Source: Parvibaculaceae bacterium (lineage in GTDB: Bacteria > Pseudomonadota > Alphaproteobacteria > Parvibaculales > Parvibaculaceae). From it: a DNA stretch of 64,000 nt. Location of the stretch: assembly GCA_028283765.1 (NCBI GenBank), contig JAPWJY010000009.1, positions 62,001-126,000 on the forward strand, in the 5' to 3' direction. Positions within the stretch are counted from its first letter, which is position 1, and every line of letters begins with the position of its first letter. A model generated the notes under the pieces. It was not told the origin of the DNA. It searched no databases and was given only the letters and a program-made list of their open reading frames with translations. This document shows, one piece after another, positions 10,977 through 51,557 of this stretch. Both the position numbers and the translations under genes were made by a program.

Positions 10977-12274
10977 TGTCGCTGGAACTGGGCCTGACAC
11001 TCGCCGTCGTCATCGCCCTGGTGGTGGTGTCGGCCTTCTTCTCCGGGTCCGAAACCGCGATCACCGCCGCCTCGCGCGCCACCATGCACAAGCTGGCGGA
11101 AGACGGGAACCGGCGCGCCCGGCTGGTCCGCCGCTTCATGGAAAAGCCCGAACAGGTGATCGGCGCGCTGCTGCTCGGCAACAATGCCGTCAATATCCTC
11201 TCCTCGGCGCTTGCGACCAGCGCGCTGCTCACGATTTTCGGCCGCGCGGGCATCGTCTACGCCACCATTCTCGTCACCATCCTCGTTCTCATCTTCGGCG
11301 AGGTCATGCCCAAGACCTACGCCATCGCCAACCCGGACCGGGTGGCGCTCGCCATCGCCCCGGCGCTCCGCTTTTTCATCGTCCTTTTCTCGCCGGTCAC
11401 GCTTGCCGTGCAATTCATCGTCAAGCGCGCGCTGCGCCTGCTCGGCGTGCGCGTGGGCGAAACCATCGGCATCGTGACGGCCCATGACGAACTGCGCGGC
11501 GCCATCGATCTGCATCACCGTGAAGGCGGCGTGATCAAGGATGACCGCGACATGCTGGGCGGCATCCTCGACCTGCGCGAGCTTGAGGTGACCGACATCA
11601 TGGTCCACCGCAAGAGCATGGAGATGATCGACGCCGGCCTGCCCATGGCGGAGATCGTCAATCTGGTGCTGGCAAGCCCCTATACCCGCCTGCCCCTGTG
11701 GCGTGAGGAGCCAGACAACATCGTCGGCATCCTGCACGTCAAGGACCTGCTGCGCGCCATCGCAGGCACCGGCTGGAACCTCGACGAGATCAGCCTGAAG
11801 ACCATCTCGACAAAGCCCTGGTTTATCCCCGAATACACGAGCCTTCAGGACCAGCTCAACGCCTTCCTGCGCCGCAAGGCCCATTTCGCCCTTGTGGTCG
11901 ATGAATACGGCGCGCTGATGGGCCTGATCACGCTTGAGGATATTCTGGAGGAAATCGTCGGCAACATCACCGACGAGCACGACATCGACCTGCCCGGCGC
12001 GCGCCCGCAGGCGGACGGCAGCGTGATCGTCGACGGTTCCGTGCCGATCCGCGACCTCAACCGCACCTTCGACTGGCAGTTGCCGGACGACGAGGCGGTG
12101 ACCATCGCAGGCCTCGTCATCCATGAGGCGCAGGCCATCCCCGATCTCGGCCAGACCTTCACGTTTTACGGTTACCGGTTCACCATCGTCGGCAAGCAGA
12201 TCAACCAGATCACGTCCCTGCGGATCATGCCCCTGAAGGCACGGCCCGCAAATCCGCCGCTCACCGGGCGCTGA
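10976..12274 (+). CDS. CNNM/CBS-domain (HlyC/CorC family) membrane protein
   Basis: A 432-aa integral membrane protein: an N-terminal DUF21/CNNM domain with about four helices (FFSGSETAITAASRATMHKL is the hallmark), two CBS motifs around 200-320 (VTDIMVHRKSMEMID and HFALVVDEYGALMGLITLEDILEEIVG), and a C-terminal CorC/HlyC transporter-associated domain (about 340-420). Such proteins are linked to magnesium/cobalt efflux or ion homeostasis; the hemolysin name is historical. The start overlaps the aroB stop (TGATG). The 3' end overlaps the convergent hisG by 14 bases. Confidence 0.9.
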   Translation: MSLELGLTLAVVIALVVVSAFFSGSETAITAASRATMHKLAEDGNRRARLVRRFMEKPEQVIGALLLGNNAVNILSSALATSALLTIFGRAGIVYATILVTILVLIFGEVMPKTYAIANPDRVALAIAPALRFFIVLFSPVTLAVQFIVKRALRLLGVRVGETIGIVTAHDELRGAIDLHHREGGVIKDDRDMLGGILDLRELEVTDIMVHRKSMEMIDAGLPMAEIVNLVLASPYTRLPLWREEPDNIVGILHVKDLLRAIAGTGWNLDEISLKTISTKPWFIPEYTSLQDQLNAFLRRKAHFALVVDEYGALMGLITLEDILEEIVGNITDEHDIDLPGARPQADGSVIVDGSVPIRDLNRTFDWQLPDDEAVTIAGLVIHEAQAIPDLGQTFTFYGYRFTIVGKQINQITSLRIMPLKARPANPPLTGR

Positions 12275-13238
12275 TGCGCGCCAGCAATCTTTCGCGCAAG
12301 GGGTTTCCCGCCTCGAAAATGAATTCCGTGCGCGCCGCCGTCACCGTCTCGCGGCCCTGCGTGTAAAGATAGGCCACCAGATCGTAGAGATTGCCCGCCG
12401 GGCAATGGACGACGCGCACCGGCGCTTCCCGGAAGGCCCGGGCATAAGGCACAGTGGCGGCGAAACGCCGCTCAAGCTCGCCCAGCAGCGCCGCATCGTC
12501 GCCGCCTTCAAAGCGCACTTCCATCATGTCCCCGGCCCGGCGTTCGGCGGCGATGCGATCCAGCACCTGGGTCGCGGCGGCCAGCGCCCCCTCGCTCCAG
12601 CCGGCGCGCAGGCTCGCGACCAGATTGGCCTGACTTTTCAGGATCACGCCATCGTCGAGAATCTTGAGGTTGTTCGCCGCCAGCGTCGCCCCGGTCGTGG
12701 TGATGTCCACGATGATCTCGGCCGAGCCCGCCGCGGGCGCGCCCTCGGTCGCACCGAGACTCTCGACGATCCGGTAGTCGGAAATGCCGTGCTCCGCGAA
12801 AAAACCCCGCGTCAGGTTGATGTATTTGGTGGCGACACGCAGCCGCTTGCCGTGGCGGCGGTGGAAGGCCAGCGCCACATCGTCAAGGTCCGCCATGGTG
12901 GCGACATCGATCCAGCTTTGCGGCACGGCGACGATGACATCGGCATAGCCAAAGCCGAGCGGCAGCAGCAATTCGACCTTGCTGTCCGGCGCGGTGATTT
13001 CCTCGCGGATCAGGTCCTCGCCGGTGACGCCGAAATGAATGCCGCCGCTTTCAAGCTGGCTGGCGATCTCGGAGGCCGACAGGAACGCGACCCTTGCGTT
13101 GCCGATGCCCGCCAGACGGCCGACATATTCGCGCCCGCCGGAATGTTTGACCGCAAGCCCGGCCCTCGCGAAGAAGGCGTTGGCGTTTTCCTGCAAGCGC
13201 CCCTTGGAGGGGATGCCGATGATGAGCGTATCAGACAT
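12261..13238 (-). CDS. hisG: ATP phosphoribosyltransferase
   Basis: A 325-aa enzyme for the first step of histidine synthesis, joining ATP and PRPP. The start IGIPSKGRLQENANAFFARAG and the PRPP loop IIVDITTTGATLAANNL are diagnostic. It is longer than the roughly 210-230-aa HisZ-dependent short form, with about 100 extra C-terminal residues (from ADMMEV-like GDMMEVRF onward), as in several alphaproteobacteria that still keep hisZ. I take ATG 13238, with GGGAG nine bases upstream; ATG 13244 would add two residues but leaves only three bases. Its start lies inside the 3' end of hisZ, so the two are coupled. Confidence 0.95.
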   Translation of the reverse strand: MSDTLIIGIPSKGRLQENANAFFARAGLAVKHSGGREYVGRLAGIGNARVAFLSASEIASQLESGGIHFGVTGEDLIREEITAPDSKVELLLPLGFGYADVIVAVPQSWIDVATMADLDDVALAFHRRHGKRLRVATKYINLTRGFFAEHGISDYRIVESLGATEGAPAAGSAEIIVDITTTGATLAANNLKILDDGVILKSQANLVASLRAGWSEGALAAATQVLDRIAAERRAGDMMEVRFEGGDDAALLGELERRFAATVPYARAFREAPVRVVHCPAGNLYDLVAYLYTQGRETVTAARTEFIFEAGNPLRERLLARISAR

Positions 13239-20259: not shown

Positions 20260-20291
20260 TTCCGCGCTCCTTCAGGAAATGAGCATATTTT

Positions 20292-20332
20292 ACAAGATTT
20301 ACATTTTCAACCGATTCAATCACAAATCTTGT
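20292..20332. promoter_or_regulatory. Candidate ScfR operator between scfR-like gene and aceB
   Basis: In an AT-rich 190-base divergent intergenic region, ACAAGATTT (20292-20300) and AAATCTTGT (20324-20332) form a perfect 9-bp inverted repeat with a 23-base spacer. The position between the regulator and the glyoxylate shunt genes suggests the autoregulatory/aceB operator. Function is inferred from position only. Confidence 0.5.
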
Positions 20333-20450
20333 CAACATATTTACTTTAATGATTTCAATGGGTTGGGTTTAGCGTGACAAGAGCCTGTTGAATCTGTATG
20401 ACCCCTGCGCAATAGAGATCACTCCCACCGCGCGGATAGGAAACATACAG

Positions 20451-37998: not shown

Positions 37999-39104
37999 AT
38001 GCCCATCGCATCGCACCCGGCAAAAAAACACCGACGGCAGGCGAGAATGGCCGCGCCGGGCCTGCTGTCCTGCGCCCTGATGCTGGGCGCCATGATGGTT
38101 CCACCCGGCCCGGCTTTCGCCGCGGATACGGCGAGCGAGGCCGCGCAGCCGGATAACGGCTTCATCACGCTCCAGAGCGAAAACGACAAATATGCCTTCA
38201 ACCCGACCGACAGGCATTACACGAACGGCATTCAGGCTTCGTGGCTTTCGGGGCCCCGCGAGGACATGCCCGAATGGCTGAAGGAGATCGCCGCGCCGCC
38301 GCTGCTTGCCGATCCCAACCGCATCGCGACCGAGAACCACCGGGTCGGCGTCTCCTTCGGTCAGGTGATCTTCACGCCTGAAGATACGCAGGCCCGCCAG
38401 CCTCTTTACAAGGATCGCCCTTATGCGGCCTGGACCCATCTCACCTTTTCGCTGCTGAGCGTGCGCACCACGGCGCTCGGCTCGGCATGGCAGGATCGAT
38501 GGAACCTCGACGTCGGCATGGTCGGCCCCGCCGCTCTGGGGCGGCAGGTGCAGAACGGGTTTCACAGCCTGATCGATGTGGATACGGCCAAGGGCTGGGA
38601 CAACCAGATAAAGAACGAACCGGGACTCAACCTCACCTTCGAGCGGGCGTGGCGCTCCAGCGTCTTCGACACGCCGCAGATTCTGGGCATGGACACCGAT
38701 TTCATTCCCTATGGCATGGCCGCGCTCGGCAATATCTCGACCCTTGCGGGCGTGGGCGGCACCTTTCGCATCGGCCCCGATCTGCCGGATGATTTCGGCC
38801 CACCCGCATCTATCCCGGCATCGGCGGATCGGACTGGTTTCACACATCGAAGGAGTTCAGCTGGTATTTTTTCGGCGGCTTTGAAGGCCGCGCGGTCGCC
38901 CGCGATATTTTCCTCGACGGCAACAGTTTCCGCGACAGCATGAGCGTGGACAAGAAGCCGCTGGTCGGCGATCTGCGCGCCGGCGTCGTGGTGGTGCTGG
39001 GCCGGGCGCGCCTGAGCTTCACGCAAGTGCTGCGTTCGGAAGAGTTCCACGGGCAGGACGGACCCGATCAATTCGGTTCGCTATCGCTCAGTCTGGCGTT
39101 ATAA
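37999..39104 (+). pseudogene. LpxR-like lipid A deacylase gene with a frameshift near the 3' end
   Basis: The protein begins with a signal peptide (KKHRRQAR, then hydrophobic LLSCALMLGAMM, cleavage near AFA-AD) and an outer-membrane barrel of the DUF2219/LpxR family, with QSENDKYAFNPTDRHYTNG holding the conserved N-D and YTNG. After DLPDDFGPP the frame goes into non-family sequence and stops at 38943. One extra C in the CCC run at 38803-38805 would restore RIYPGIGGSDWFHT, FGGFEGRAVARDIFLDGN and a C-terminal LSLSLAL strand up to TAA at 39104, a normal barrel end. So a single base is missing, by mutation or assembly error. The start is uncertain; 38047 is an alternative. Confidence 0.8.
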
Positions 39105-39162
39105 AATACCCAGAACGACATCAAAAAAATAACGAGACCAAGAAAATTCAGGGAACGAAACC

Positions 39163-40623
39163 ATGACAGTCATGCCAATCGGGCGCATTCCCGCCTTCTG
39201 GGCGGAGAGCGACCCGGATGCGCCCGCGCTCAGCCATGAAGGCGAAACCATCAGCCGGGGCGCCTTCGAGCGCCGCACCAACCGCCTCGCCCGGGCCTAT
39301 GAGGCGCTGGGCGTGCGGGAAGGCGATATGGTCACCATCGGCCTGCCCAACGGCATCGAGTTCTTCGAGGCCTGCTTTGCCACATGGAAGCTTGGCGCAA
39401 CGCCTCAGCCGATTTCTGCGCGCCTGCCCCGCATCGAGCGCGACATGATCGTCGAGGTCGGCAATCCCCGTCTGGTCGTGGGCGTGCCGCAGGGTACTCA
39501 TGGCGATACCGTCTGTCTGCCCATCGGCTTCGAGCCCGATCCCGCCCTTTCCGACGCGCCGCTGCCGGAGCGGGTTTCGCGCTACTGGAAGGCCCCGACC
39601 TCGGGCGGTTCCACGGGCCGTCCCAAGATCATCGTGTCGAACGATCCCGGCCTGTTCGATCCGATGGAAAAGCCGCTCCAGATGGAAACCGGCCGCACCC
39701 AGCTCGTGCCCGGTCCGCTTTACCATAACGGCCCCTTCTCCTTCTCGATGCGCGGCTTCTGCTCCGGCAACCACATCATCATCATGACGCGCTTCGACGC
39801 CGAGGAAACGCTGGGCCTGCTCGCCAACCACAAGGTCGACTGGGTCAATCTCGTGCCGACCATGATGCACCGCATCTGGAATCTGCCCGCCGAAATCCGC
39901 AACAAATATGATCTCTCGTCGCTGCGCATCGTCCTCCATCTGGCCGCGCCCTGCCCCGCATGGCTCAAGGAGGAGTGGATCAACTGGCTCGGCCCCGCCC
40001 GCATCCACGAGCTTTATGGCGGCACGGAAGCGCAGGGCTTCACCTGGATCACCGGCGAGGAATGGCTCCAGCACAAGGGCTCGGTCGGCCGCATCGGCGC
40101 GGGCTCGCAGGTCAGGATCGTCGATGAGGCGGGCAACGTCCTGCCAGCAGGCGAGATCGGGGAAGTCTTCTTCATGCCCGACAGGGGCCCCGGCAGCACC
40201 TATCATTATATCGGTGCGTCGCCCAAGCAGATCGACGGCGGCTGGGAATCCATCGGCGATGTCGGCTGGCTCGACGAGGATGGCTATCTCTACCTCGCCG
40301 ACCGCCACACCGACATGATCCTGAGCGGCGGGGCGAACATCTATCCAGCCGAAATCGAGGCCGCCATCGAGGCCTTCCCCGGCATCCGCTCCTCCTGCGT
40401 CATCGGCATCCCGGACGACGACATGGGCAATCTCGTGCACGCCATCATCGATGTGCCCGAACCCATCGACACCGAAGCCCTTACCAGCCATCTGGCCGAG
40501 CGTCTGGTGCGCTACAAGATTCCGCGCACCTTCGAATATGTGAGCGAGCCCCTGCGCGACGACGCGGGCAAGGTGCGCCGCTCGCAGCTCCGCAAGGAGC
40601 GGATCGAGGCGAGGGCTTCCTAA
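39163..40623 (+). CDS. AMP-binding acyl-CoA ligase (bile-acid/cyclic-acid type)
   Basis: A 486-aa adenylate-forming enzyme. The P-loop TSGGSTGRPK is at about 145-154, the adenine motif is ELYGGTEAQGF, and the hinge/ribose segment GDVGWLDEDGYLYLADR; the catalytic lysine is in DDAGKVRRSQL near the C terminus. It activates a carboxylic acid to the acyl-AMP and then acyl-CoA. The active-site pattern resembles bile acid-CoA and cyclohexane-carboxylate ligases more than long-chain acyl ligases, which is a weak inference. AGGGA precedes the ATG. Its stop overlaps that of the convergent kup. Confidence 0.88.
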   Translation: MTVMPIGRIPAFWAESDPDAPALSHEGETISRGAFERRTNRLARAYEALGVREGDMVTIGLPNGIEFFEACFATWKLGATPQPISARLPRIERDMIVEVGNPRLVVGVPQGTHGDTVCLPIGFEPDPALSDAPLPERVSRYWKAPTSGGSTGRPKIIVSNDPGLFDPMEKPLQMETGRTQLVPGPLYHNGPFSFSMRGFCSGNHIIIMTRFDAEETLGLLANHKVDWVNLVPTMMHRIWNLPAEIRNKYDLSSLRIVLHLAAPCPAWLKEEWINWLGPARIHELYGGTEAQGFTWITGEEWLQHKGSVGRIGAGSQVRIVDEAGNVLPAGEIGEVFFMPDRGPGSTYHYIGASPKQIDGGWESIGDVGWLDEDGYLYLADRHTDMILSGGANIYPAEIEAAIEAFPGIRSSCVIGIPDDDMGNLVHAIIDVPEPIDTEALTSHLAERLVRYKIPRTFEYVSEPLRDDAGKVRRSQLRKERIEARAS

Positions 40624-42524
40624 ACCGCGGCTTTCGTGCCCAGTTCGACAACCCGGTTCGGCGGCAGTCCAAAAAACTCCGTCGGACCGAGGGCATAATC
40701 CGTCAGCAGAATGAATAGCCGAGACTGCCAGCGCGGCATGGCCGAAGGCTTGGCGGGCACCAGCGTCTGGCGGCTGACGAAATAGCTGGTTTCCATAGGC
40801 GGAAACTCAAGGCCATAGGGACGGCAGCGCACCAGTTGCTGGGGCACATCCACCGTCTGCATGAAGCCGTGACGGATCTCGATGCGGGCGAAGCCATTGT
40901 CCAGCAGCTCGACCTTCAGCATCTCGTCCAGCGGCACGCGCGGGCTGTCCTCGACGCTGACGCGCAGCATCGCCACGCGCTGGTGCAGCACCTGATTGTG
41001 CTTGAGATTATGCAGCAGCGCGGTCGGCACGGAATCGAGATCGGCGGTCAGGAATACGGCCGCGCCCTTGACGCGCGGTATCTTCTGGTCCGACAGACGT
41101 TCGATGAAGGAGCGCAGCGGCACCGCGCCATTGAGGAAGCGGCGGGCGAGAATCTGGCGGCCTCGCCACCATGTCCGCATCACCATGAACATCAGGATGC
41201 CGATCATGATGGGCAGCCAGCCGCCCTGCTCGACCTTGACCAGATTGGGAATGAGAAACGAGAAATCGAGAAAGGCGAAAGCGCCGCAGAGCGCGATGGC
41301 GGGCAAGAAGCCCCAGCCCTTGATCCGGCGCACCACGACGAAAAAGAGAAAGGTCGTAAGCACCATGGTGCCGGTGACCGCCACGCCATAGGCTGCCCCC
41401 AGATTGGCTGAACTCTTGAACGTGAGCACGGTCGCCAGCACGCCCAGCATCAGCGCGGTGTTGACCTGTGGCACGAACACCTGCCCCACTTCGGACGCGG
41501 ACGTATGCAGCACGCGCAGGCGCGGCAGCCAGCCAAGCTCAACCGCCTGGCTGGTCATCGAAAAGGCCCCTGAAATAACCGCCTGCGAGGCGATGATGGC
41601 GGCAAGGGTGGCGAGCCCGACCATGGGCAGGCGCAGCATTTCGGGCACGAGCAGGAAAAAAGGATTGGCGATCGCCGCGGGATTGGACAGCAGCAGCGCC
41701 CCCTGCCCGAAATAGTTGAGGGCAAGCGCGGGCCAGACCATGGCGAACCAGACATGGCGGATCGTGTTGCGGCCGAAATGCCCCATATCGGCATAAAGCG
41801 CCTCGGCGCCGGTGACGGACAGCACCACCGCGCCCAGCAGCTCGAAGGGTGCGACATGGCCGCTGAACAGGAGCCTGACGCCATAAACAGGGTTGAGCGC
41901 CTTCAGCACCACCGGATTGTTGATGATGCCGTAAATGCCCAGCGCCGCGATGACGATGAACCAGACGATCATGATCGGCCCGAACCAGGCTCCTATCCCC
42001 GCCGTGCCGCGCTTCTGGGCCAGAAACAGGACCACCAGCAGGACCGCGGCGATCGGCGTCGCACTCTGGTCGAGCACCGGTGAAATGACATGAAGGCCCT
42101 CGACGGCCGAAAGCACGGAAATGGCGGGCGTCAGCACTCCGTCGCCATAAAACAGCGCCGCGCCCAGCATGCCCGCCGCGATAATGACGGTGGCGGAGGG
42201 CCGCACCGTGCCTTTTCCCTTGCGCGCGATGATGGCGGCAAGCGCCATCGCGGCAAGGGCGAGCACGCCACCCTCCCCCCTGTTGTCGGCGCGCATGACG
42301 AAGATGACGTATTTGACCATCACCACCAGCGTCAGCGCCCAGAACACCAGCGAAAGAATGCCGAGAACGCCGGCTTCGCCAGCCTTCAGTCCCACCACGG
42401 GATCGAAGCACTGACGGATCGTATAGAGAGGGCTGGTGCCAATATCGCCAAAGACGACCCCGATGGCCGCGGCATGAAGAGCAAGCCCTTTACTCGGCTG
42501 CTCCCGGGACGAGACGATGCTCAA
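40620..42524 (-). CDS. kup: Kup-type potassium uptake permease
   Basis: A 634-aa K+/H+ symporter with about 12 helices. GVVFGDIGTSPLYTI near the N terminus and ALFYGDGVLTPAISVLSAVEG (cut to family core) are the KUP signatures, with MRADNRGEGG between. The long cytosolic C terminus is present. No ATG fits: I chose TTG at 42524, with GGAGG eight bases upstream; another TTG at 42548 would add eight residues. Non-ATG initiation may keep expression low. Confidence 0.93.
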   Translation of the reverse strand: MSIVSSREQPSKGLALHAAAIGVVFGDIGTSPLYTIRQCFDPVVGLKAGEAGVLGILSLVFWALTLVVMVKYVIFVMRADNRGEGGVLALAAMALAAIIARKGKGTVRPSATVIIAAGMLGAALFYGDGVLTPAISVLSAVEGLHVISPVLDQSATPIAAVLLVVLFLAQKRGTAGIGAWFGPIMIVWFIVIAALGIYGIINNPVVLKALNPVYGVRLLFSGHVAPFELLGAVVLSVTGAEALYADMGHFGRNTIRHVWFAMVWPALALNYFGQGALLLSNPAAIANPFFLLVPEMLRLPMVGLATLAAIIASQAVISGAFSMTSQAVELGWLPRLRVLHTSASEVGQVFVPQVNTALMLGVLATVLTFKSSANLGAAYGVAVTGTMVLTTFLFFVVVRRIKGWGFLPAIALCGAFAFLDFSFLIPNLVKVEQGGWLPIMIGILMFMVMRTWWRGRQILARRFLNGAVPLRSFIERLSDQKIPRVKGAAVFLTADLDSVPTALLHNLKHNQVLHQRVAMLRVSVEDSPRVPLDEMLKVELLDNGFARIEIRHGFMQTVDVPQQLVRCRPYGLEFPPMETSYFVSRQTLVPAKPSAMPRWQSRLFILLTDYALGPTEFFGLPPNRVVELGTKAAV

Positions 42525-42685
42525 CAGTCCAGCCTCCGGCTGTCGCAAACGGGAGGCAAAGGGATACGCAACAGCTCACGACAGGTCAAGCGACCCATAT
42601 CGTGCGTTGTCGAGGCCCCAACCCCTCTGGTAGAGCAACACTACAGTAACTTCAAATCAACAGTATAGCCCCGAGGGAGAATCCC

Positions 42686-43510
42686 ATGTCCGCAGAGCCG
42701 AAAGCCGCCGACGAACCCATCGTTCTGGTCGAAAAAAGGGGCGAAATCGCCCTTGTCACCCTCAATCGCCCCCGGGCGATGAATGCACTCTCCCGGCCGC
42801 TGCGCACCGCCATCGCGGACACGTTCGAGGCGCTGGAAGCCGATCCCGCCGTGCGCGTCGTCGTGCTGACGGGGGCGGGCAAGGCGTTCTGCGCCGGCCT
42901 CGACCTCAAGGAACTGGGCCAGGACGCCAGCGCGGCGGGCGGGGAAGCAGCGGGCGGCGTCAACGCCACCATCAACGACAAGGACCCGGTTACCTCCATC
43001 AACCGTTTCTCCGGCCCGGTCATCGGCGCCATCAATGGCGTCGCCATCACCGGCGGTTTCGAACTGGCGCTCGCCTGCGACGTGCTGATTTGCGCGCCCG
43101 AGGCCCGCTTCGCCGACACCCATGGCCGCGTCGGCATCCTGCCGGGCTGGGGCCTGTCGCAGAAGCTGTCGCGGGCCATCGGCCTCTATCGCGCCAAGGA
43201 ACTGTCGCTGACGGGCAATTTCCTCTCCGCCGCCCAGGCTGCCGAATGGGGCCTCGTCAACCGGGTCGTGCCCGCCGACGAACTGATCTCCGCCAGCCTC
43301 AAACTGGCGGAAGACATGCTGTCCCTCGTCCCGGAATGCCTGACCGGCTACAAGAGCCTGATCAATGAGGGCTTCGCCCAGAGCTTCGGCGATGCGCTTG
43401 CCACCGAAAAGCGCGTTTCCGGCGCGGCCAACAAGGCGGTCTCATCATCGGCCATCGAGGATCGCCGCGAAGCCATCCGCCAGCGCGGGCAGACGCAGAC
43501 AGGCAACTGA
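42686..43510 (+). CDS. Enoyl-CoA hydratase/isomerase family protein
   Basis: A 274-aa crotonase-fold protein. The oxyanion-hole segments are AFCAGLDLKEL (about 67-77) and GVAITGGFELALACD with Glu126. The second catalytic glutamate of classical hydratases (in the FGQPEI block) is replaced: the aligned sequence is FADTHGRVGILPGWG, placing His146 there. It may therefore be an isomerase or other CoA-acting enzyme and not a standard hydratase. GAGGGAG precedes the ATG. A long hairpin follows. Divergent from kup. Confidence 0.87.
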   Translation: MSAEPKAADEPIVLVEKRGEIALVTLNRPRAMNALSRPLRTAIADTFEALEADPAVRVVVLTGAGKAFCAGLDLKELGQDASAAGGEAAGGVNATINDKDPVTSINRFSGPVIGAINGVAITGGFELALACDVLICAPEARFADTHGRVGILPGWGLSQKLSRAIGLYRAKELSLTGNFLSAAQAAEWGLVNRVVPADELISASLKLAEDMLSLVPECLTGYKSLINEGFAQSFGDALATEKRVSGAANKAVSSSAIEDRREAIRQRGQTQTGN

Positions 43511-43517
43511 ACCCTGT

Positions 43518-43557
43518 GGCCGTGTCAGGACTGTCCGCGGACAGCCCTGACACGGCC
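43518..43557. terminator. Long perfect-armed hairpin after the enoyl-CoA hydratase-like gene
   Basis: GGCCGTGTCAGG (43518-43529) pairs with CCTGACACGGCC (43546-43557); inside it the 14-base palindrome CTGTCCGCGGACAG adds a further seven pairs after one mismatch. There is no T-run, so it may be a Rho-assisted end or an RNA-stabilising structure. It isolates the small gene downstream. Confidence 0.55.
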
Positions 43558-43558
43558 G

Positions 43559-43678
43559 CACCCAGGCACAAATTAAGTACAGTTAAGTATTAATAGATTA
43601 TACTCTCTATATATTCAATTTTTATTAGGAATAAGCTTTTATACTTGTGTCTTCTACTGCGTTTGACAGGAGGAAGTC
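43559..43678 (+). promoter_or_regulatory. AT-rich upstream region of the small peptide gene
   Basis: Between 43571 and 43650 only 16 of 80 bases are G or C, in an otherwise GC-rich window. Two copies of TTAAGTA (43573-43579 and 43583-43589) are spaced exactly 10 bases, one helical turn. ACAGTTAAG (43579-43587) matches the loose published consensus for LytTR regulator boxes, which is suggestive only. TATACT hexamers at 43600 and 43641 are possible -10 boxes. Confidence 0.5.
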
Positions 43679-44014
43679 ATGACATCGCAAGGTTTCTCAC
43701 CGTCTCTGGATGACCGGGTTCTCAGCCCTCGACAGATCGAAGCCGTCTCGGGCGGTGGCGGGGTCAATGGGGCCGCCTACAATGACCTCATAGCGAAAAA
43801 CCACCAGCTCCGGGACCAGAGGAATGCCCAGCTCTCCGCCGCGCAGGCCGCAGCCCCTGCCGCAACGCCCCAGTCACCAAGAGGAGGGATGCTGAACTTC
43901 AGGCTGAACGCCGATGGTACAATTCAAGGCCTTGAAGGTCTCTATGGAGGCGGCGGCGGGATTGGCGGCGTAGGCGGCGCCGGTGCGGGGGCCGGCGGGG
44001 CGGGCGGTTCCTAG
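43679..44014 (+). CDS. Small glycine-rich peptide with a double-glycine-type leader
   Basis: A 111-aa protein with one of the best ribosome sites in the window (AGGAGG seven bases from ATG). Residues 1-26 look like a bacteriocin/microcin leader: LSPRQIEAVSGG fits the pattern of polar/hydrophobic spacing ending in Gly-Gly (G25-G26) that C39 peptidase transporters cut. The rest is an Asn/Gln/Ala-rich segment (NHQLRDQRNAQLSAAQAAAP) and a tail with long glycine runs (LYGGGGGIGGVGGAGAG). No signal peptide or membrane helix. No transporter, modifying enzyme or immunity gene adjoins it. Coding status rests on the ribosome site, leader pattern and isolated promoter-like region; toxin activity is inference. 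Confidence 0.7.
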   Translation: MTSQGFSPSLDDRVLSPRQIEAVSGGGGVNGAAYNDLIAKNHQLRDQRNAQLSAAQAAAPAATPQSPRGGMLNFRLNADGTIQGLEGLYGGGGGIGGVGGAGAGAGGAGGS

Positions 44015-44116
44015 AGCCCTCACAGCACCCTTCCCGGCTGGAAGGGCTAACGCGGACCTTCGCACTGCGCCGCATTCGCGCTAAACTCCCGGAAAACAAA
44101 TTCCGGGAGGACAGCC

Positions 44117-45859
44117 ATGCACGATATCATCATCCGCGGCGGCACCATTTACGACGGCTCCGGCGGCAAGCCGTTCAAGGGCGACGTCGCCATCGACGGC
44201 GGCGTCATCACCGCCGTCGGCACCGTCACCGGCCCGGCCCGGGAGGAAATCGACGCGACCGGCCAGATCGTCACCCCCGGCTTCATCGATGTTCACACCC
44301 ATTATGACGGGCAGGTCACCTGGGACCCCTATCTCCAGCCCTCGACCTTTCACGGCGTCACCACCGCCGTCATGGGCAATTGCGGCGTCGGCTTCGCGCC
44401 CTGCAAGCCGGAACAGCGCTCCTGGCTGCTGGGCCTGATGGAAGGGGTCGAGGATATTCCCGGCACGGCGCTCGCCGAGGGCATCAAGTGGAACTGGGAA
44501 AGTTTCCCGCAATATATGGATGCCGTGGAGGCCTCGCCGCTGGCCCTCGACGTCGGCCTTCAGGTGCCCCACGCCGCCGTCCGCGCCTATGTGATGGGCG
44601 AGCGCGCCACGCCGCTTGAGCCTTCAACCGCCGAGGAAACCGCCGAGATGGGCCGTCTGGTCGTCGAGGCCCTTGAAGCGGGCGCGCTCGGCTTTTCGAC
44701 CTCGCGTACCCTCAAGCACAAGGATGTGAAGGGCGCGCCGACCCCGACGCTGGAGGCCGAGGCCGCCGAACTGCACGGCATCGCCCGGGCCATGGGCGAG
44801 GCGGGCAAGGGCGTGCTCCAGCTCATCGCCGACTTCAAGCAGACGGACGAGGAATTTTCGATCCTGCGCGGCATGGTCGAGGTGTCGGGCCGCCCGCTCT
44901 CGATCACCATCGAACAGGACGACCGCTGGCCGACCGTCTGGAGCCGCGTGCTCGACAATATCGCCGCCGCCAATGCCGCCGGGCTGCCGGTCAGGGGCCA
45001 GGTGCCGCCGCGCGCCACGGGGCTTCTTCTGGGCCTGACCTCGTCCCTCAACCCGTTCGTGATGCACAAGACCTTCCGCCAGATCGGCCATGCCCCGCTC
45101 GATGAGCAGCTTGCCGCCCTGCGCGATCCCGCTTTCCGGGCGCAATTGCTGGCGGAAGAGCCCGCCTACCCGAAGGGCGAGATCATCGAGATGATCTGCA
45201 CCCATTATCACAAGATGTTCGCGCTCGGCGAAACGCCCAACTATGAGCCCGCGCCCGAGGAAAGCGTGAAGGCCCGGGCCGGACGGGCGGGGAAAAACCC
45301 GCGCGAAATCGTTCTGGACCTGATGCTGGAGCAGGATGGCCGCGCGCTGCTCTATTTCCCGCTGATGAACTACAGCTGCGGCAGCCTCGACGATGTCGAG
45401 ACCATGCTGACCCACCCCAACACCGCCTTCGGCCTCAGCGACGGCGGCGCGCATTGCGGCATCATCTGCGACGCGAGCTTCCCGACCACGATCCTGACCC
45501 ATTGGGGCCGCGACCGGACAAGGGGCTCGAAACTGCCGCTCGAATGGCTGGTCCATGGCCTCACCGGCCGCAACGCCGAGCTGATCGGCCTGCTGGACCG
45601 GGGCATCCTTGCTCCCGGCATGAAGGCGGACGTCAACGTCATCGACTTCGACGGATTGCGCCTTTACTCCCCGCAGATCGTCTATGATCTGCCGGCAGGC
45701 GGCAAGCGGCTGATCCAGAAGGCGGACGGCTATACCGCCAGCATCGTTTCGGGTGCCGTGGCGTTCCGGAACGGCGTGCCGACCGGCGTGCTGAACGGCC
45801 GCCTCGTGCGCGGCGCCCGGCAACGCCCCGCGCAGGCCCGGGGCGTTGCCGCCGAATGA
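44117..45859 (+). CDS. N-acyl-D-amino-acid deacylase-type amidohydrolase
   Basis: A 580-aa metal-dependent hydrolase. It opens with IIIRGGTIYDGSG and has the metal motif HTHYDGQ (H60, H62), then VMGNCGVGFAPC, typical of D-aminoacylase-like enzymes, and a late metal site in FGLSDGGAHCG followed by LGHWGRDR-like THWGRDR. A C-terminal dihydroorotase-like strand (GMKADVNVIDFDGL) closes the beta-sandwich. GGGAGG lies six to seven bases before ATG. The natural substrate is unknown; many members are misnamed. It stands alone between the peptide gene and the glucan synthase. Confidence 0.88.
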   Translation: MHDIIIRGGTIYDGSGGKPFKGDVAIDGGVITAVGTVTGPAREEIDATGQIVTPGFIDVHTHYDGQVTWDPYLQPSTFHGVTTAVMGNCGVGFAPCKPEQRSWLLGLMEGVEDIPGTALAEGIKWNWESFPQYMDAVEASPLALDVGLQVPHAAVRAYVMGERATPLEPSTAEETAEMGRLVVEALEAGALGFSTSRTLKHKDVKGAPTPTLEAEAAELHGIARAMGEAGKGVLQLIADFKQTDEEFSILRGMVEVSGRPLSITIEQDDRWPTVWSRVLDNIAAANAAGLPVRGQVPPRATGLLLGLTSSLNPFVMHKTFRQIGHAPLDEQLAALRDPAFRAQLLAEEPAYPKGEIIEMICTHYHKMFALGETPNYEPAPEESVKARAGRAGKNPREIVLDLMLEQDGRALLYFPLMNYSCGSLDDVETMLTHPNTAFGLSDGGAHCGIICDASFPTTILTHWGRDRTRGSKLPLEWLVHGLTGRNAELIGLLDRGILAPGMKADVNVIDFDGLRLYSPQIVYDLPAGGKRLIQKADGYTASIVSGAVAFRNGVPTGVLNGRLVRGARQRPAQARGVAAE

Positions 45860-46080
45860 GCGATAGACTAAAAGCCGAAGCTGGTGCCGGTCTGTCGCGA
45901 TGATTGCTGAAGGGGAAAATCCCGCCGGGTTTGCCATAATTCGGTCACGGCGGCCCCTGATGCTCCACCAACACACAGGCGCCATCGGGCAATGTGCAAG
46001 ATGAGCCGGTACATGTATGCAATGGGCCTCCCGGACGGCCCGGAACGATCCGCCCGGGATCACAAAAGCATGAGTTTTTT

Positions 46081-48774
46081 ATGAACCAACCTGCCGAAAA
46101 GCCGTCACGCTTTGCAGCACTCTTTCGGCTCGCCGCCTTTCTGGTGATCGTGCTGCCGCTGGTCATCTTCGCCAATCTGGCGGTCTGGTCCGCCTTCAAC
46201 CAGCCGCATTCGGCTGAATCCTGGACCGGGGAAATCGTCGGCTACGATTACAGCCCCTATCGTTTCGGCCAGAATCCGAACAAGGGCAGCCAGCCCACGT
46301 CCGAACAGATCGATCAGGACCTGAAGCTGCTGTCCCAGCACGCGCAGGCGATCCGGACCTATTCCACCATCGACGGGCTCGACGTCATACCCGACATCGC
46401 CGCGAAATATGATCTGTCGGTTGCGTTGGGCGCCTGGGTCGACCAGCGCAGGGACCGCAACGACGAGGAAGTCAAAAACCTCATCAGGCTCGCCTGGAAA
46501 AAGAACGTCGTCCGCCTGATCGTCGGCAATGAAGCCATCCTGCGCGGCGATCTCGAAGCCTCCGACATCATCACCTATATCCGTCAGGTCAAGCAGACGG
46601 TCTGGAAGCCGGTCAGCACCGCCGAACCGTGGCACGTCTGGCTCAAGCATCCCGAACTCGTCAAGGAAGTGGACTATATCGCCATCCACCTGCTGCCCTA
46701 CTGGGAAGGTGTGGATATCAAGCGCTCGATCCCCTACATCCTCGACGAGATGCAGCAGGTCCACGACCGCTATCCCGACAAGCCCATCGTCATCACGGAA
46801 GTGGGCTGGCCCAGCAGCGGCAAGGTGTTCCCGCGCCGCCTGGCGCCCAACTCGCCCAAGGAGCAGTGGGACGAGGAGGCCGTGCCCTCCCTCGTCAACG
46901 AGGCGACCTTCCTGCGCGAATTCATGAACGAGGCCAAGGCGCGCCACCTCACCTATTATGTGATGGAAGCCTTCGACCAGCCGTGGAAGATCGAGAACGA
47001 AGGCGCGGCGGGCGCCTTCTGGGGCGTTTATGACGCCAACCGCCAGCCCAAATTCCCCATGGCGGGCGAAATCATCGAGGCCCCGCACTGGCGCATCTAT
47101 GCCTCGATCGCGGTCGGCCTCGCCATGATCCCCGCCGTGCTGTTCGTGCTGCGGCGTCATCACGTGAAACCGGCCGGCGTCATCATCTTCATGATCCTGA
47201 CGCAGATCGCGGCATCCGCCATCGCCTGGGCTGGCCTCTCCGCCACCGGCCTCTATTTCACGACGACGCAGATCGTGGTCTGGAGTTTCCTGTTCCTGTG
47301 TCAGGGCCTGTTGCTGATCGTGCTGCTGGCGGAAGCCATCGAGTTCGTCGAGGTCATCTGGACGCGCGAGGGCAACCGCTCGTTCAAGCCGTTCGCGCAT
47401 GATGTCGACTATCCCAAGAACAAGATCTCGATCCACGTCCCTATCCATAATGAACCGCCCGAGATGGTGATCGAGACGCTCAATGCGCTGAACCGTCTCG
47501 ACTACCCCAATTTCGAGGTTCTGATCCTCGACAACAACACGAAGGATCCCGCGGTCTGGGAGCCGGTGCGCGATCATTGCCAGAAGCTCGGCGCGCACTT
47601 CCGCTTCTTCCATCTGGAAAACTGGCCGGGCTTCAAGGCGGGCGCACTCAACTACGGCCTGACCCAGACAGCGGAGGACGCCGACATCGTCGCGGTCATC
47701 GACAGCGACTATCAGGTCATCCCCTCGTGGCTGCGCACCATGGTGCCCTATTTCGAGAAGCAGGATGTCGCTATCGTGCAGGGTCCGCAGGACTACCGCG
47801 ACGGCCATGAGAGCCTGTTCAAGAACATGGTCTACTGGGAATATGCGGGCTTCTTCCATATCGGCATGGTGCAGCGGAACAATTTCAACGCGATCATCCA
47901 GCACGGCACCATGACCATGGTGCGCAAGACCGCGCTTCAGGGGGCGGAGGGCTGGGCCGAATGGTGCATCTGCGAGGATGCGGAACTGGGCCTCAAGCTC
48001 TACCGGCAGGGTTACGACTCTGTCTATGTCAGCGACAGCTTCGGCAAGGGCCTCACCCCCGATACGCTGGCGGGCTATATCGGCCAGCGCTTCCGCTGGG
48101 CCTATGGCGCGGTCCAGATCGTCAAGCACCACTGGAAGGCGCTACTGCCGTGGAATTCCAAAGGTGGGCTCACCGCCGCCCAGCGCTATTACTTCATCGC
48201 CGGCTGGCTGCCCTGGTTCGCCGACGGCCTCGCCCTCGTCTTCACGGTCACGAGCTTCTTCGTTTCCGTCTGGGCGCTGATCGACCCCAAATCGGTTTCG
48301 CTGCCGGTCGCGGCCTTCCTCATTCCGACCATCGGCAGCTTCGCCTTCAAGTTCATCCGCTCGCTGGCGCTCTATGCCGTGCGTGTGCGGGGGGCCGGGT
48401 TCTGGAACTCGCTGGGCGCGGGCGTGGCGGCGCTCGCCCTCACCCACACCGTCGCCAAGGCCGTGTTGCAGGGCTTCATCACGAAGGACAAGCCTTTCTT
48501 CCGCACCCCCAAGCTTGAAGACCAGCCGGGACTTTCGGCCATCTTCATTCAGGTGCGCGAGGAAACCGTGATGCTGATCATCATCTGGGGGCTGGCCATC
48601 GCCTTCCTGCTCAGCCCCTCCTTCTCGGACACGCAATCGCGGCTCTGGGTCGCGGTTCTCTTCGTCCAGTCGATCCCCTATGCGGCGGCCGTCCTGCTGT
48701 CGTTCATCAATGTGCTGCCCGCCCTTTTCCGCAAGCGCACCGCCAGCGACAAGGCGGCCATCCCGGCGGAATAA
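46081..48774 (+). CDS. GH17-GT2 fusion, NdvB-like beta-1,3/1,6-glucan synthase
   Basis: An 897-aa inner-membrane protein. After one N-terminal helix (about 18-37) comes a periplasmic GH17 domain (about 55-345) with both catalytic glutamates, in IVGNEAILRG and VITEVGWPSSG. Further helices lead to a cytosolic GT2 domain (about 440-690): HVPIHNEPPE, ILDNNTKD, the DxD in VIDSDYQ, EDAELGLKL and the QRFRW processivity motif; a helical C-terminal part follows. Size and two-domain order match NdvB of Bradyrhizobium, which makes cyclic beta-1,3/1,6-glucans for hypo-osmotic adaptation. No ndvC-like partner adjoins. The start is taken at 46081 just before the hydrophobic segment; its ribosome site is poor. 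Confidence 0.87.
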   Translation: MNQPAEKPSRFAALFRLAAFLVIVLPLVIFANLAVWSAFNQPHSAESWTGEIVGYDYSPYRFGQNPNKGSQPTSEQIDQDLKLLSQHAQAIRTYSTIDGLDVIPDIAAKYDLSVALGAWVDQRRDRNDEEVKNLIRLAWKKNVVRLIVGNEAILRGDLEASDIITYIRQVKQTVWKPVSTAEPWHVWLKHPELVKEVDYIAIHLLPYWEGVDIKRSIPYILDEMQQVHDRYPDKPIVITEVGWPSSGKVFPRRLAPNSPKEQWDEEAVPSLVNEATFLREFMNEAKARHLTYYVMEAFDQPWKIENEGAAGAFWGVYDANRQPKFPMAGEIIEAPHWRIYASIAVGLAMIPAVLFVLRRHHVKPAGVIIFMILTQIAASAIAWAGLSATGLYFTTTQIVVWSFLFLCQGLLLIVLLAEAIEFVEVIWTREGNRSFKPFAHDVDYPKNKISIHVPIHNEPPEMVIETLNALNRLDYPNFEVLILDNNTKDPAVWEPVRDHCQKLGAHFRFFHLENWPGFKAGALNYGLTQTAEDADIVAVIDSDYQVIPSWLRTMVPYFEKQDVAIVQGPQDYRDGHESLFKNMVYWEYAGFFHIGMVQRNNFNAIIQHGTMTMVRKTALQGAEGWAEWCICEDAELGLKLYRQGYDSVYVSDSFGKGLTPDTLAGYIGQRFRWAYGAVQIVKHHWKALLPWNSKGGLTAAQRYYFIAGWLPWFADGLALVFTVTSFFVSVWALIDPKSVSLPVAAFLIPTIGSFAFKFIRSLALYAVRVRGAGFWNSLGAGVAALALTHTVAKAVLQGFITKDKPFFRTPKLEDQPGLSAIFIQVREETVMLIIIWGLAIAFLLSPSFSDTQSRLWVAVLFVQSIPYAAAVLLSFINVLPALFRKRTASDKAAIPAE

Positions 48775-48792
48775 CCAGCCATCGACCAAAAT

Positions 48793-48821
48793 AAAAGGCC
48801 GGTATCGCTACCGGCCTTTTT
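48793..48821 (+). terminator. Rho-independent terminator after the glucan synthase
   Basis: GGCCGGTA, TCGC loop, TACCGGCC, flanked by AAAA and TTTTT, then CATG. Serves both the glucan synthase (+) and the convergent SDR gene (-), whose stop is 18 bases away. Confidence 0.92.
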
Positions 48822-48838
48822 CATGTCCGCTCCGGCGA

Positions 48839-49603
48839 TCAGATGCCGCCGCCGTCGATGTTGATCTTCTGTCCGTTGGCGTAAGGATTGGCGTCGGAGA
48901 CAAGCCAGAGCACGGCGGCCGCCACATCCTCGGGCACCGAGACCCGCCCGAACGGATAGAGCTTGTCCAGATCGTGAATGTCGCTGACACCGGAACGCGC
49001 CGTCGCCAGACGCCGTCCCATTTCCGTATCCGTGAGGCTGGGCGCGACGATATTGGTGCGGATGCCGTGGACGCGCTCCTCCCTGGCGAGCGTCAGCGCC
49101 AGCGCCTCCATCGCGGCCTTGCCCATATTGTAGGGCGCGCCGTTCGCCGCCATGCGCAATGTCGCCACCGAGGAGATCATGATGATGTCGCCCCGCTTCT
49201 CCTTGCGCATGTGCGGCACCACGAGGCCGGAAAGAAAATGCGGTGCGAGCGCATGCACCCGCATGACGCGCTCAAGCTCGGCAGGATCGGTATCGGCAAT
49301 CGCCCGGCCCCGGCTCGCGATGCCCGCATTGTTGACGAGAATGCCGATCGAGCCGAAATCCTTCAGCACATCGGCGACCAGCGCCTGAACCTCGTCGAAA
49401 TTTTCGACCGACGCCTGATAGGCCTTCGCCTTGCGGCCAAGCTTCCCGATATCCGCTACGGTTTCGGCCGCCGCCTCCCCGTCACGGCGATAGTTGATCG
49501 CCACGTCCGCGCCCGCGCCTGCAAGCGCCAGCGCAATCGACCTGCCAATGCCCCGGCTGCCGCCGGTCACAAGCGCGACACGGCCCTTCAACGAGATTTC
49601 CAT
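48839..49603 (-). CDS. Short-chain dehydrogenase/reductase (FabG-like)
   Basis: A 254-aa classical SDR: cofactor motif TGGSRGIG (13-20), NNAG (91-94), and the catalytic set S145 (ISSVA), Y158 and K162 (YNMGK). ATG at 49603 has GGGAGG in good position; an earlier ATG would put this site inside the gene. NAD(P)H-dependent ketone/alcohol conversion; the substrate is not evident. It follows an acyl-CoA ligase on the same strand after a terminator-like hairpin. Confidence 0.88.
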   Translation of the reverse strand: MEISLKGRVALVTGGSRGIGRSIALALAGAGADVAINYRRDGEAAAETVADIGKLGRKAKAYQASVENFDEVQALVADVLKDFGSIGILVNNAGIASRGRAIADTDPAELERVMRVHALAPHFLSGLVVPHMRKEKRGDIIMISSVATLRMAANGAPYNMGKAAMEALALTLAREERVHGIRTNIVAPSLTDTEMGRRLATARSGVSDIHDLDKLYPFGRVSVPEDVAAAVLWLVSDANPYANGQKINIDGGGI

Positions 49604-49719
49604 ACATCCTCCCATGAACGGCTTTGCATTCTTCCTGCCGCCGCTCTTTGCGTCTGTTTTCAGATGCGCCGAATCTAGCAGCTATTCCCCCGGTTTGAAG
49701 CGCAGGCATCCGGCATCGC

Positions 49720-49753
49720 AAAATGAAAGAAGCGGCCCCTTGAGAGGGCCGCT
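49720..49753 (-). terminator. Terminator downstream of the acyl-CoA ligase
   Basis: On the minus strand AGCGGCCC, a 7-base loop and GGGCCGCT form a perfect 8-bp stem, followed by the T-rich TCTTTCATTTT. It lies about 38 bases beyond the ligase stop. Confidence 0.75.
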
Positions 49754-49790
49754 CCGTCCAGACTTGCCAGATGCTGGCGCGCTTTTCCGC

Positions 49791-51557
49791 TCAGACCGCC
49801 GTTGCGTATTTCTTCATGTCGTCCCGCAGCGTGCCCTTCAGGATCTTGCCATTGGCGTTGCGCGGCAGCGGCTCGGTGCGGATTTCGATCTTCACCGGCA
49901 CCTTGAAGGCGGCCAGCAGCTTGCCGACATGAGCCTTCAGTTGCGCCTCGTCGATTTCCTTGCCCGGCGCGACCTGCACGATGGCGCCCACCTCCTCGCC
50001 CAGCACGCGATGCGGGATGCCGACGACAGCCGCATCCATCACGCCCTCGAAGGCATAAAGCACGCTCTCGACCTCGACGCAGTAGATGTTCTCGCCGCCG
50101 CGGATCAGCATGTCCTTGGCGCGGTCGAGAATATAGATGAAGCCTTCCTCGTCGATGCGCACCAGATCGCCGGAGTGGAACCAGCCCCCCTCGGTGATGG
50201 CCGCCGCCGTCGCCTCGGGCTTGTTCCAGTAGCATTTCACGATATTGGGACCCTTGATCCAGAGTTCCCCGATTTCGTTGACGCCGACGGCCTCGCCCTT
50301 CTCGTTGACGGCCTTCACATCGCAGACGGGCACGGCGGGGCCGCAGCTGTCCGGGCGGTTGACGTAATCCTCGGCGGAATTCATCGTCGTGATCGAGGAC
50401 GTTTCCGTCAGGCCGTAGCCGTTCGAGGGCGCAGATTTCGGGAACAGTTGCTTGATGCGGGCAACAAGCTCCGGCGCGGAAGGTGCGCCGCCATAGCCGA
50501 CGCCATCGACGCTCGACGTGTCGTACTTATCGAAGTCCGGGCTCTCGATCACCTGCCAGACCATGGCGGGCACACCGCCGAAAGTGTTGACCTTTTCCTG
50601 CTCGATCAGTTGCAGCGCGCGTTCGGGATTCCAGCGGTGCATCATCACCACGCGCGCGCCGGTGGCATAGTTCGCGACCAGAATGGAGTGGCAACCCGTG
50701 GCATGGAACAGGGGCACGGAGAGCAGCATCACCCGCTGCGGCCCGGCCGGATCCGGCGGCTGGGGGATTTCGCCCCGGCGCATCATGGCGCGCGCAGGGC
50801 CAAACATGGCGTTGATGAGATTGGTGCACATGTTGCGGTGCGTGCCGAGCGCACCCTTGGGCCTGCCCGTGGTGCCCGAGGTGTAGAAGATCGTGGCGTC
50901 GTCATCGGGATCGATGGCGACGTCCGGGAAGGAGTCCCCCGGCAGGCTGGCGTATCCGTCCGGCGAACCGATCAGGTCCTCGAAGGCGTCAGCGCCGCCG
51001 CGCAGGTTCGCGGGCGTGCGCACGGCGACCACGCCGGCGAGCTTCAGACTGGGCAGGCCGGGCGCGATGCGCTCCAGCCGCTCGCCATCGACGACGGCGA
51101 CTTTCGAGCCTGAGTCCGAGATGCCATATTCGAGTTCATCCGCCGTGCCCCAGGCATTGAGCGGCACGATGACCGCGCCCAGCGCGACCGTCGCCCAGAA
51201 AACGATGGACCATTCCGGAAAATTGCGCATGGCAAGGGTGACATGGTCGCCCTTCCTCACACCATAACGGTCCGCAAGCACCCGCGCGAAGGCCGTGACC
51301 GCACGATAATGGTTCTCGAAGTTCAGCCGCTCGCCTTCATAGACGATGAAATCGCGCGCACCGAAAGCCCGGCCCGCATCGAGGATCACGCGCAGGTTGG
51401 ACGGCGTGCTCTTGTAGACGCGGGTGGGAACGCCGCGAACATCCACGGTTTCCATCTCGAACGGCGTCCCGGGAGAGGTCAGAAACGCAATCGTGTCCTT
51501 CATGCTCAGCACCGGCCAATTGTCGGGGAGGCCGGGGTTTCTGGCTGTATCCGTCAT
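49791..51557 (-). CDS. AMP-dependent acyl-CoA synthetase/ligase
   Basis: A 588-aa adenylate-forming enzyme with P-loop YTSGTTGRPKG (about 226-236), the adenine motif NGYGLTETSS, GWFHSGDLVRIDEEGFIYI (short form) and the C-terminal lysine segment LPRNANGKILKGTLR. The complete linker and C domain fit fatty- or aryl-acid CoA ligases. ATG 51557 is chosen because GGGAG is six bases upstream, while the in-frame ATG at 51563 abuts it. Its roughly 50 N-terminal residues before the first core helix are longer than usual. Confidence 0.9.
   Translation of the reverse strand: MTDTARNPGLPDNWPVLSMKDTIAFLTSPGTPFEMETVDVRGVPTRVYKSTPSNLRVILDAGRAFGARDFIVYEGERLNFENHYRAVTAFARVLADRYGVRKGDHVTLAMRNFPEWSIVFWATVALGAVIVPLNAWGTADELEYGISDSGSKVAVVDGERLERIAPGLPSLKLAGVVAVRTPANLRGGADAFEDLIGSPDGYASLPGDSFPDVAIDPDDDATIFYTSGTTGRPKGALGTHRNMCTNLINAMFGPARAMMRRGEIPQPPDPAGPQRVMLLSVPLFHATGCHSILVANYATGARVVMMHRWNPERALQLIEQEKVNTFGGVPAMVWQVIESPDFDKYDTSSVDGVGYGGAPSAPELVARIKQLFPKSAPSNGYGLTETSSITTMNSAEDYVNRPDSCGPAVPVCDVKAVNEKGEAVGVNEIGELWIKGPNIVKCYWNKPEATAAAITEGGWFHSGDLVRIDEEGFIYILDRAKDMLIRGGENIYCVEVESVLYAFEGVMDAAVVGIPHRVLGEEVGAIVQVAPGKEIDEAQLKAHVGKLLAAFKVPVKIEIRTEPLPRNANGKILKGTLRDDMKKYATAV

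Follow-up and report, generated by a model that had tools for sequence, protein, structure and literature searches.

The window, that is, the whole 64-kb stretch of DNA analysed here, carries on its forward strand a gene for a 111-residue precursor peptide (43679-44014), which begins with ATG at 43679 and whose stop codon ends at 44014. An AGGAGG ribosome-binding site (43668-43673, same strand) lies 5 nt before the ATG. Upstream is an AT-rich pocket, presumably the promoter region (43567-43646), whose 16 G/C are the minimum for 80 nt in the window (start 43567); the 90 nt from 43567, with 20 G/C, are also the lowest of that length, and the sole other stretch of the window with no more than 30% GC per 90 nt is found at 20265-20377. 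The pocket contains a direct repeat, TTAAGTA-N3-TTAAGTA, with a 10-base period (43573-43589, forward strand), which might serve as an activator site. The heptamer occurs in the window only as these two copies (43573 and 43583) and has no copy on the other strand. Further upstream, after the stop codon of an enoyl-CoA hydratase gene, a 23-bp inverted repeat (43515-43560, forward strand) forms a hairpin with arms (43515-43537 and 43538-43560) that are 91% complementary; its minimum free energy (43505-43570) is -40.7 kcal/mol, equalled by none of 200 shuffles. By the scan used, this hairpin is not a canonical intrinsic terminator because no T run follows it. Scanning around the gene for consensus sigma-70 promoters and terminators gave no site, and an Rfam search of 43400-44250 gave no match. 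The open reading frame, its 26-residue leader and the AGGAGG site described by the original prediction can be read directly from the DNA, and the AT-rich region, hairpin and repeat that it listed all lie where it placed them.

The four nearest genes encode an enoyl-CoA hydratase, an amidohydrolase, a Kup-type K+ transporter and a glycosyltransferase, so that the precursor gene indeed stands, as predicted, without an adjoining peptide exporter or immunity gene (four nearest genes identified; open reading frames of 38000-50000 listed). Its third-position GC is 0.67, below that of the genes on either side (0.85 and 0.87). The ribosome-binding region in front of the amidohydrolase gene overlaps a nine-pair hairpin (44086-44109), whose stem the congener keeps unaltered (z -5.1 and -4.0) and which possibly serves translational control. 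At 45994-48774, a long open reading frame joins a glycosyl hydrolase family 17 match to a glycosyltransferase family 2 domain in a glucan-synthase-like layout.

Residues 1-26 (43679-43756, forward strand) form a double-glycine leader ending LSPRQIEAVSGG, with a predicted cut after Gly26. Double-glycine leaders have hydrophobic residues at positions -12, -7 and -4 and glycine at -2 and -1. In the comparison of leaders, the window peptide carries all of these; it departs at position -8, which holds Gln, or Arg in the congener, instead of the Glu or Asp seen in most leaders of the comparison. A regular expression for the leader, written after the leader had been seen, finds one match among the window's 1964 nested start positions, the peptide itself; a looser version matches 11. 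With a hidden Markov model that drew on six leaders, all from other genera, the window peptide ranked first of 469 open reading frames in the window, at a non-significant E of 0.75. A leader profile of 8 rows, 2 of them from the own genus, matches a single protein in the own genome, the window peptide (E 2.1e-7), and the genome-wide search for further proteins with this leader thus yielded no second candidate.

The predicted mature peptide (residues 27-111; 43757-44011, forward strand) has 85 residues, about 8.0 kDa and a pI of 8.5; it is hydrophilic, contains 27% Gly and lacks Cys. It consists of a predicted Ala/Gln/Asn-rich helix (residues 30-57; 43766-43849), a block NADGTIQGLEGL (residues 77-88; 43907-43942), all 12 codons of which are identical in the congener, and a glycine-rich tail (residues 90-110; 43946-44008) that is predicted to be disordered and differs in length in the congener; the chain ends in this tail with GGS. 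The hydrophobic moment of the helix does not rise above that of shuffles (88% and 87% as high). Structure prediction from two sequences gave a mean pLDDT of 58.9 and a pTM of 0.29, with moderate confidence only for the helix and a short hairpin. Neither Pfam nor NCBIfam returned a match to the peptide at E<=10.

Conservation was assessed in one congener, a metagenome-assembled genome (MAG) that is 68% complete. It has a syntenic orthologue in the same frame upstream of the same amidohydrolase, 74% identical overall, with the AGGAGG site kept, three indel-containing regions that are all in frame and a dN/dS of 0.30 over 110 codons (0.24 in the leader and 0.29 in the remainder); the flanking amidohydrolase gives 0.05. 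The leader is the most conserved part of the peptide, with 24 of 26 residues identical (92%), in agreement with the expected conservation of the VSGG leader among relatives, and its dS, from small samples, is lower than that of the rest (0.15 and 0.71). Judged by such comparison, 43679-44014 is a real gene, the solid evidence being the congener orthologue and its dN/dS.

At E<=0.001, the peptide is found in 2 of 98 genomes, its own and the congener, and the other 38 family genomes searched yielded no orthologue (the 40 order genomes of the profile search all belong to one family). A profile match in one of these 40 genomes (G008; E 0.0046, four stops) was rejected by eye as low-complexity. In the class-wide profile search of 385 genomes, five matches beyond the own genome (E 0.0006-0.007), three with internal stops and two that form part of longer frames (317-338 aa), were taken as composition hits and rejected by eye, without a formal test. 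A plasmid search for the peptide gave no match; viral contigs held 123 pattern stretches with no relative among them, and genome contigs 30, with one relative, the congener. Outside the genus, 28 amidohydrolase loci were compared: 11, from four genera (G002, G003, G004, G006, G007, G015, G016, G019, G020, G027 and G039), lack the peptide, with a hydratase at a distance of 77-163 nt, three have the hydratase ~1.1-1.3 kb away, and 14 have no hydratase in the flank covered or have a cut flank. The corresponding distance in the window is 606 nt. Because the 11 loci of four other genera keep the flanking pair without the peptide, the simplest reading is that the gene was probably gained in the own genus. 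The gained part includes the AT-rich upstream region, and no flanking duplication around it was evident in a repeat search.

The own genome contains exactly one PF03412 match at E<=10 (115.5 bits). It belongs to a 702-aa C39-ABC exporter encoded on another contig (G000:C3, ~1.38 Mb; locus L007, 12781-14889), directly downstream of a HlyD-type adaptor gene (HlyD_3; 11530-12780), and for TolC-type outer-membrane domains the genome has 10 OEP stretches in five open reading frames. A C39 transporter with a HlyD partner, for which the original prediction proposed a search, is therefore present. The exporter aligns over its length with the PDB chains of ComA and of an 'ABC-type bacteriocin transporter' of the PCAT1 type; among the 25 NCBIfam subfamilies shown, it reaches the cut-off of none, the best listed being TIGR03796 with 475.7 of 853.3 bits. 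No leader peptide was detected within 19 kb around it, and a motif shared between the upstream regions of peptide and exporter was not significant (488 and 146 of 1000 shuffles scored as high). PF03412 is matched in 7 of the 40 family genomes. In five of them, all from other genera, the triad Cys and His are missing, so that within this set both the peptide and a Cys-bearing C39 domain are confined to the own genus. This co-occurrence rests on one genus and so possibly reflects one event.

Six related exporters passed E 1e-150 in 385 evenly drawn class genomes, and five of them have a leader peptide 0.1 to ~4.4 kb away. Three are found near the closest homologue of the own exporter (G182), two in G319, and one clear and one weak in G053, with E-values for these three genomes that are in-sample because their leaders are rows of the profile; G337 and G064 have one each at weak E (0.157 and 0.315 for the two), and in G195 none was found near the exporter. 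G053 has two further leader peptides, short and alike, in tandem on another contig (L073 and L077, ~1501), which contain Cys and have acidic or Pro-rich mature parts. An exporter is absent from the ~1.5-kb flanks searched around this pair, which is thus, as far as such short flanks show, a precedent for unlinked cargo. In G337, directly behind the C39 exporter, a peptide (L069, 1501-1770) has a leader ending VSGG and then a long Gly-Asn/Asp-rich tail.

Given these data, the gene at 43679-44014 likely encodes the precursor of a secreted peptide that is exported in trans by the orphan C39 exporter; pairing, cleavage and export are inferred from sequence. In this model, the sole exporter would recognise the 26 leader residues with its N-terminal C39 peptidase domain and cut the precursor after Gly25-Gly26. 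The remaining 85 residues, rich in glycine, would then leave the cell by way of the exporter, the adaptor and the product of one of the five TolC-type genes; exporter and cargo, encoded on different contigs, would meet in trans. The idea of a stand-alone double-glycine precursor served from elsewhere is thereby supported by the single C39 exporter on another contig and by the conserved leader of the congener.

Some results speak against export in trans: the residue at leader position -8, the non-significant leave-out model, the want of a Pfam or NCBIfam match, the co-occurrence in a single genus, the lack of a significant shared upstream motif, and features of the exporter in both the own genome and the congener. 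The exporter also bears on an alternative that we regard as unlikely, namely that the leader is a relic or lookalike, with a protein that is not cargo of the C39 exporter but acts intracellularly or leaves by another route. The exporter's peptidase domain has the triad residues Cys27 and His100, with Asn116 at the third place, where the catalytic Asp is expected, and the D121N change in CvaB abolished colicin V secretion, according to the part of that report cited here (PMC3335142). The closest homologue also has Asn at this place, with leader peptides nearby, and the other five relatives have Asp; the Asn would then be a natural variant rather than a sign of decay. At the exporter locus of the congener (L010, 6457-9836), the exporter has Tyr in place of Cys27, and the adaptor gene is broken into four pieces of reading frame. 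Internal stops are absent from the five neighbouring orthologues compared there, one of which is the exporter, and the locus looks like a secretion system being lost. Another exporter may be missing from view because this MAG is 68% complete. The intact peptide gene in a genome with such an exporter and adaptor favours a relic, as do the Asn at the place of the catalytic Asp and the weak E of 0.75 when own-genus leaders are left out of the model; however, a relic leader fits poorly with the leader being the most conserved part of the peptide and the sole leader-profile match in the genome.

It is rather improbable that the peptide is a double-glycine bacteriocin or a Cdz-like glycine-zipper toxin that kills competitors. 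In favour of a toxin are the leader layout, the glycine-zipper peptides near the nearest exporter relatives, the GxxxGxxxG pattern, which the mature part shows three times, and a gene that is small, resembles an insertion and follows an AT-rich pocket. However, neither an exporter nor an immunity gene is among the four nearest genes, and Gly, Ala, Val and Ile make up 52% of the mature part, compared with 75% of glycine plus small hydrophobics in CdzC/D, as given in the cited part of the Cdz study (PMC5380434). The best 19-residue Kyte-Doolittle mean is 0.62, below the 1.64-2.15 of four peptides near related exporters, although a fifth such peptide, that of G337, is at -0.74 more hydrophilic still. 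Of the likeness to class II bacteriocins or microcins that the original prediction pointed out, the leader layout stands; such a role is not supported, given the hydrophilic mature part, the want of an adjacent immunity gene and the lack of a family match in Pfam and NCBIfam. There is a weak indication, from a mature part that is hydrophilic, glycine-rich and free of Cys, of a surface or matrix peptide and not of a bacteriocin that inserts into membranes.

That the reading frame arose by chance in an intergenic insertion, as its rapidly changing low-complexity core and its want of a Pfam or NCBIfam family might suggest, is very improbable, since the frame is open in the congener with in-frame indels, a dN/dS of 0.30 and the ribosome-binding site kept.

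Returning to export in trans, the solitary cargo and the solitary, unlinked exporter might represent a genus-specific one-cargo pair with a natural Cys-His-Asn peptidase and a surface or matrix product, of which the congener is losing the exporter but keeping the cargo; this fuller picture is a doubtful one. Plausibly, the window encodes a secreted peptide that is new but belongs to a known general type. Mining for such peptides commonly looks beside the exporter, and a precursor far from the sole candidate exporter is what these surveys miss. Where exporter and candidate cargo are each present once in the genome, their pairing would be easy to test.

Several known systems resemble this putative pair, and in the portions of the literature on them drawn on here, the window peptide is not described. 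The Cdz system of Caulobacter crescentus (exporter CdzA/B, peptides CdzC/D) shares a small glycine-rich precursor with a leader ending G[G/A/S] and an alphaproteobacterial exporter with a HlyD-type partner and without a linked TolC. The Cdz survey, as far as the cited part tells, used 60-151 residues and such a leader, both of which the window peptide has, and searched ~10 kb around the exporter (PMC5380434). The window peptide differs in lying more than 10 kb from the exporter, the sole C39 match being on another contig, in having no adjacent immunity gene and a hydrophilic mature part, and in its end: GxxxGxxxG is present at a hydropathy of only 0.62, and the chain runs out in a Gly tail, with no short terminus of charged or polar residues behind the zipper. 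A linked immunity gene, a feature of class II bacteriocins and microcins, is likewise absent from the locus, though an unlinked one may exist. CvaB/CvaA of colicin V, in the part of the literature considered, similarly combines a C39-ABC exporter, with triad Cys and His, and a HlyD-type adaptor; the own exporter differs by Asn instead of Asp at the third triad place and by a cargo outside the cluster. The nearest likeness of the cargo is the G337 peptide, with its leader ending VSGG and its long hydrophilic glycine-rich tail; unlike the window peptide, it lies directly downstream of its exporter, is acidic and has two Cys, the mature parts being compared by composition only. Finally, EbfG1-4, exported by PteB in Synechococcus elongatus, are small double-glycine secreted proteins with no bacteriocin role in the cited part of the report; their secretion needs the C39 Cys for efficiency, and their mature parts have no known homologues (PMC4997328). 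The four EbfG peptides form a cluster and, by gene number, adjoin the exporter (1134 and 1133), whereas here there is one, unlinked. The window peptide likewise has a double-glycine leader and a mature part without known homologues, and a surface or matrix role, as with the EbfG proteins, is the preferred guess, held with low confidence.
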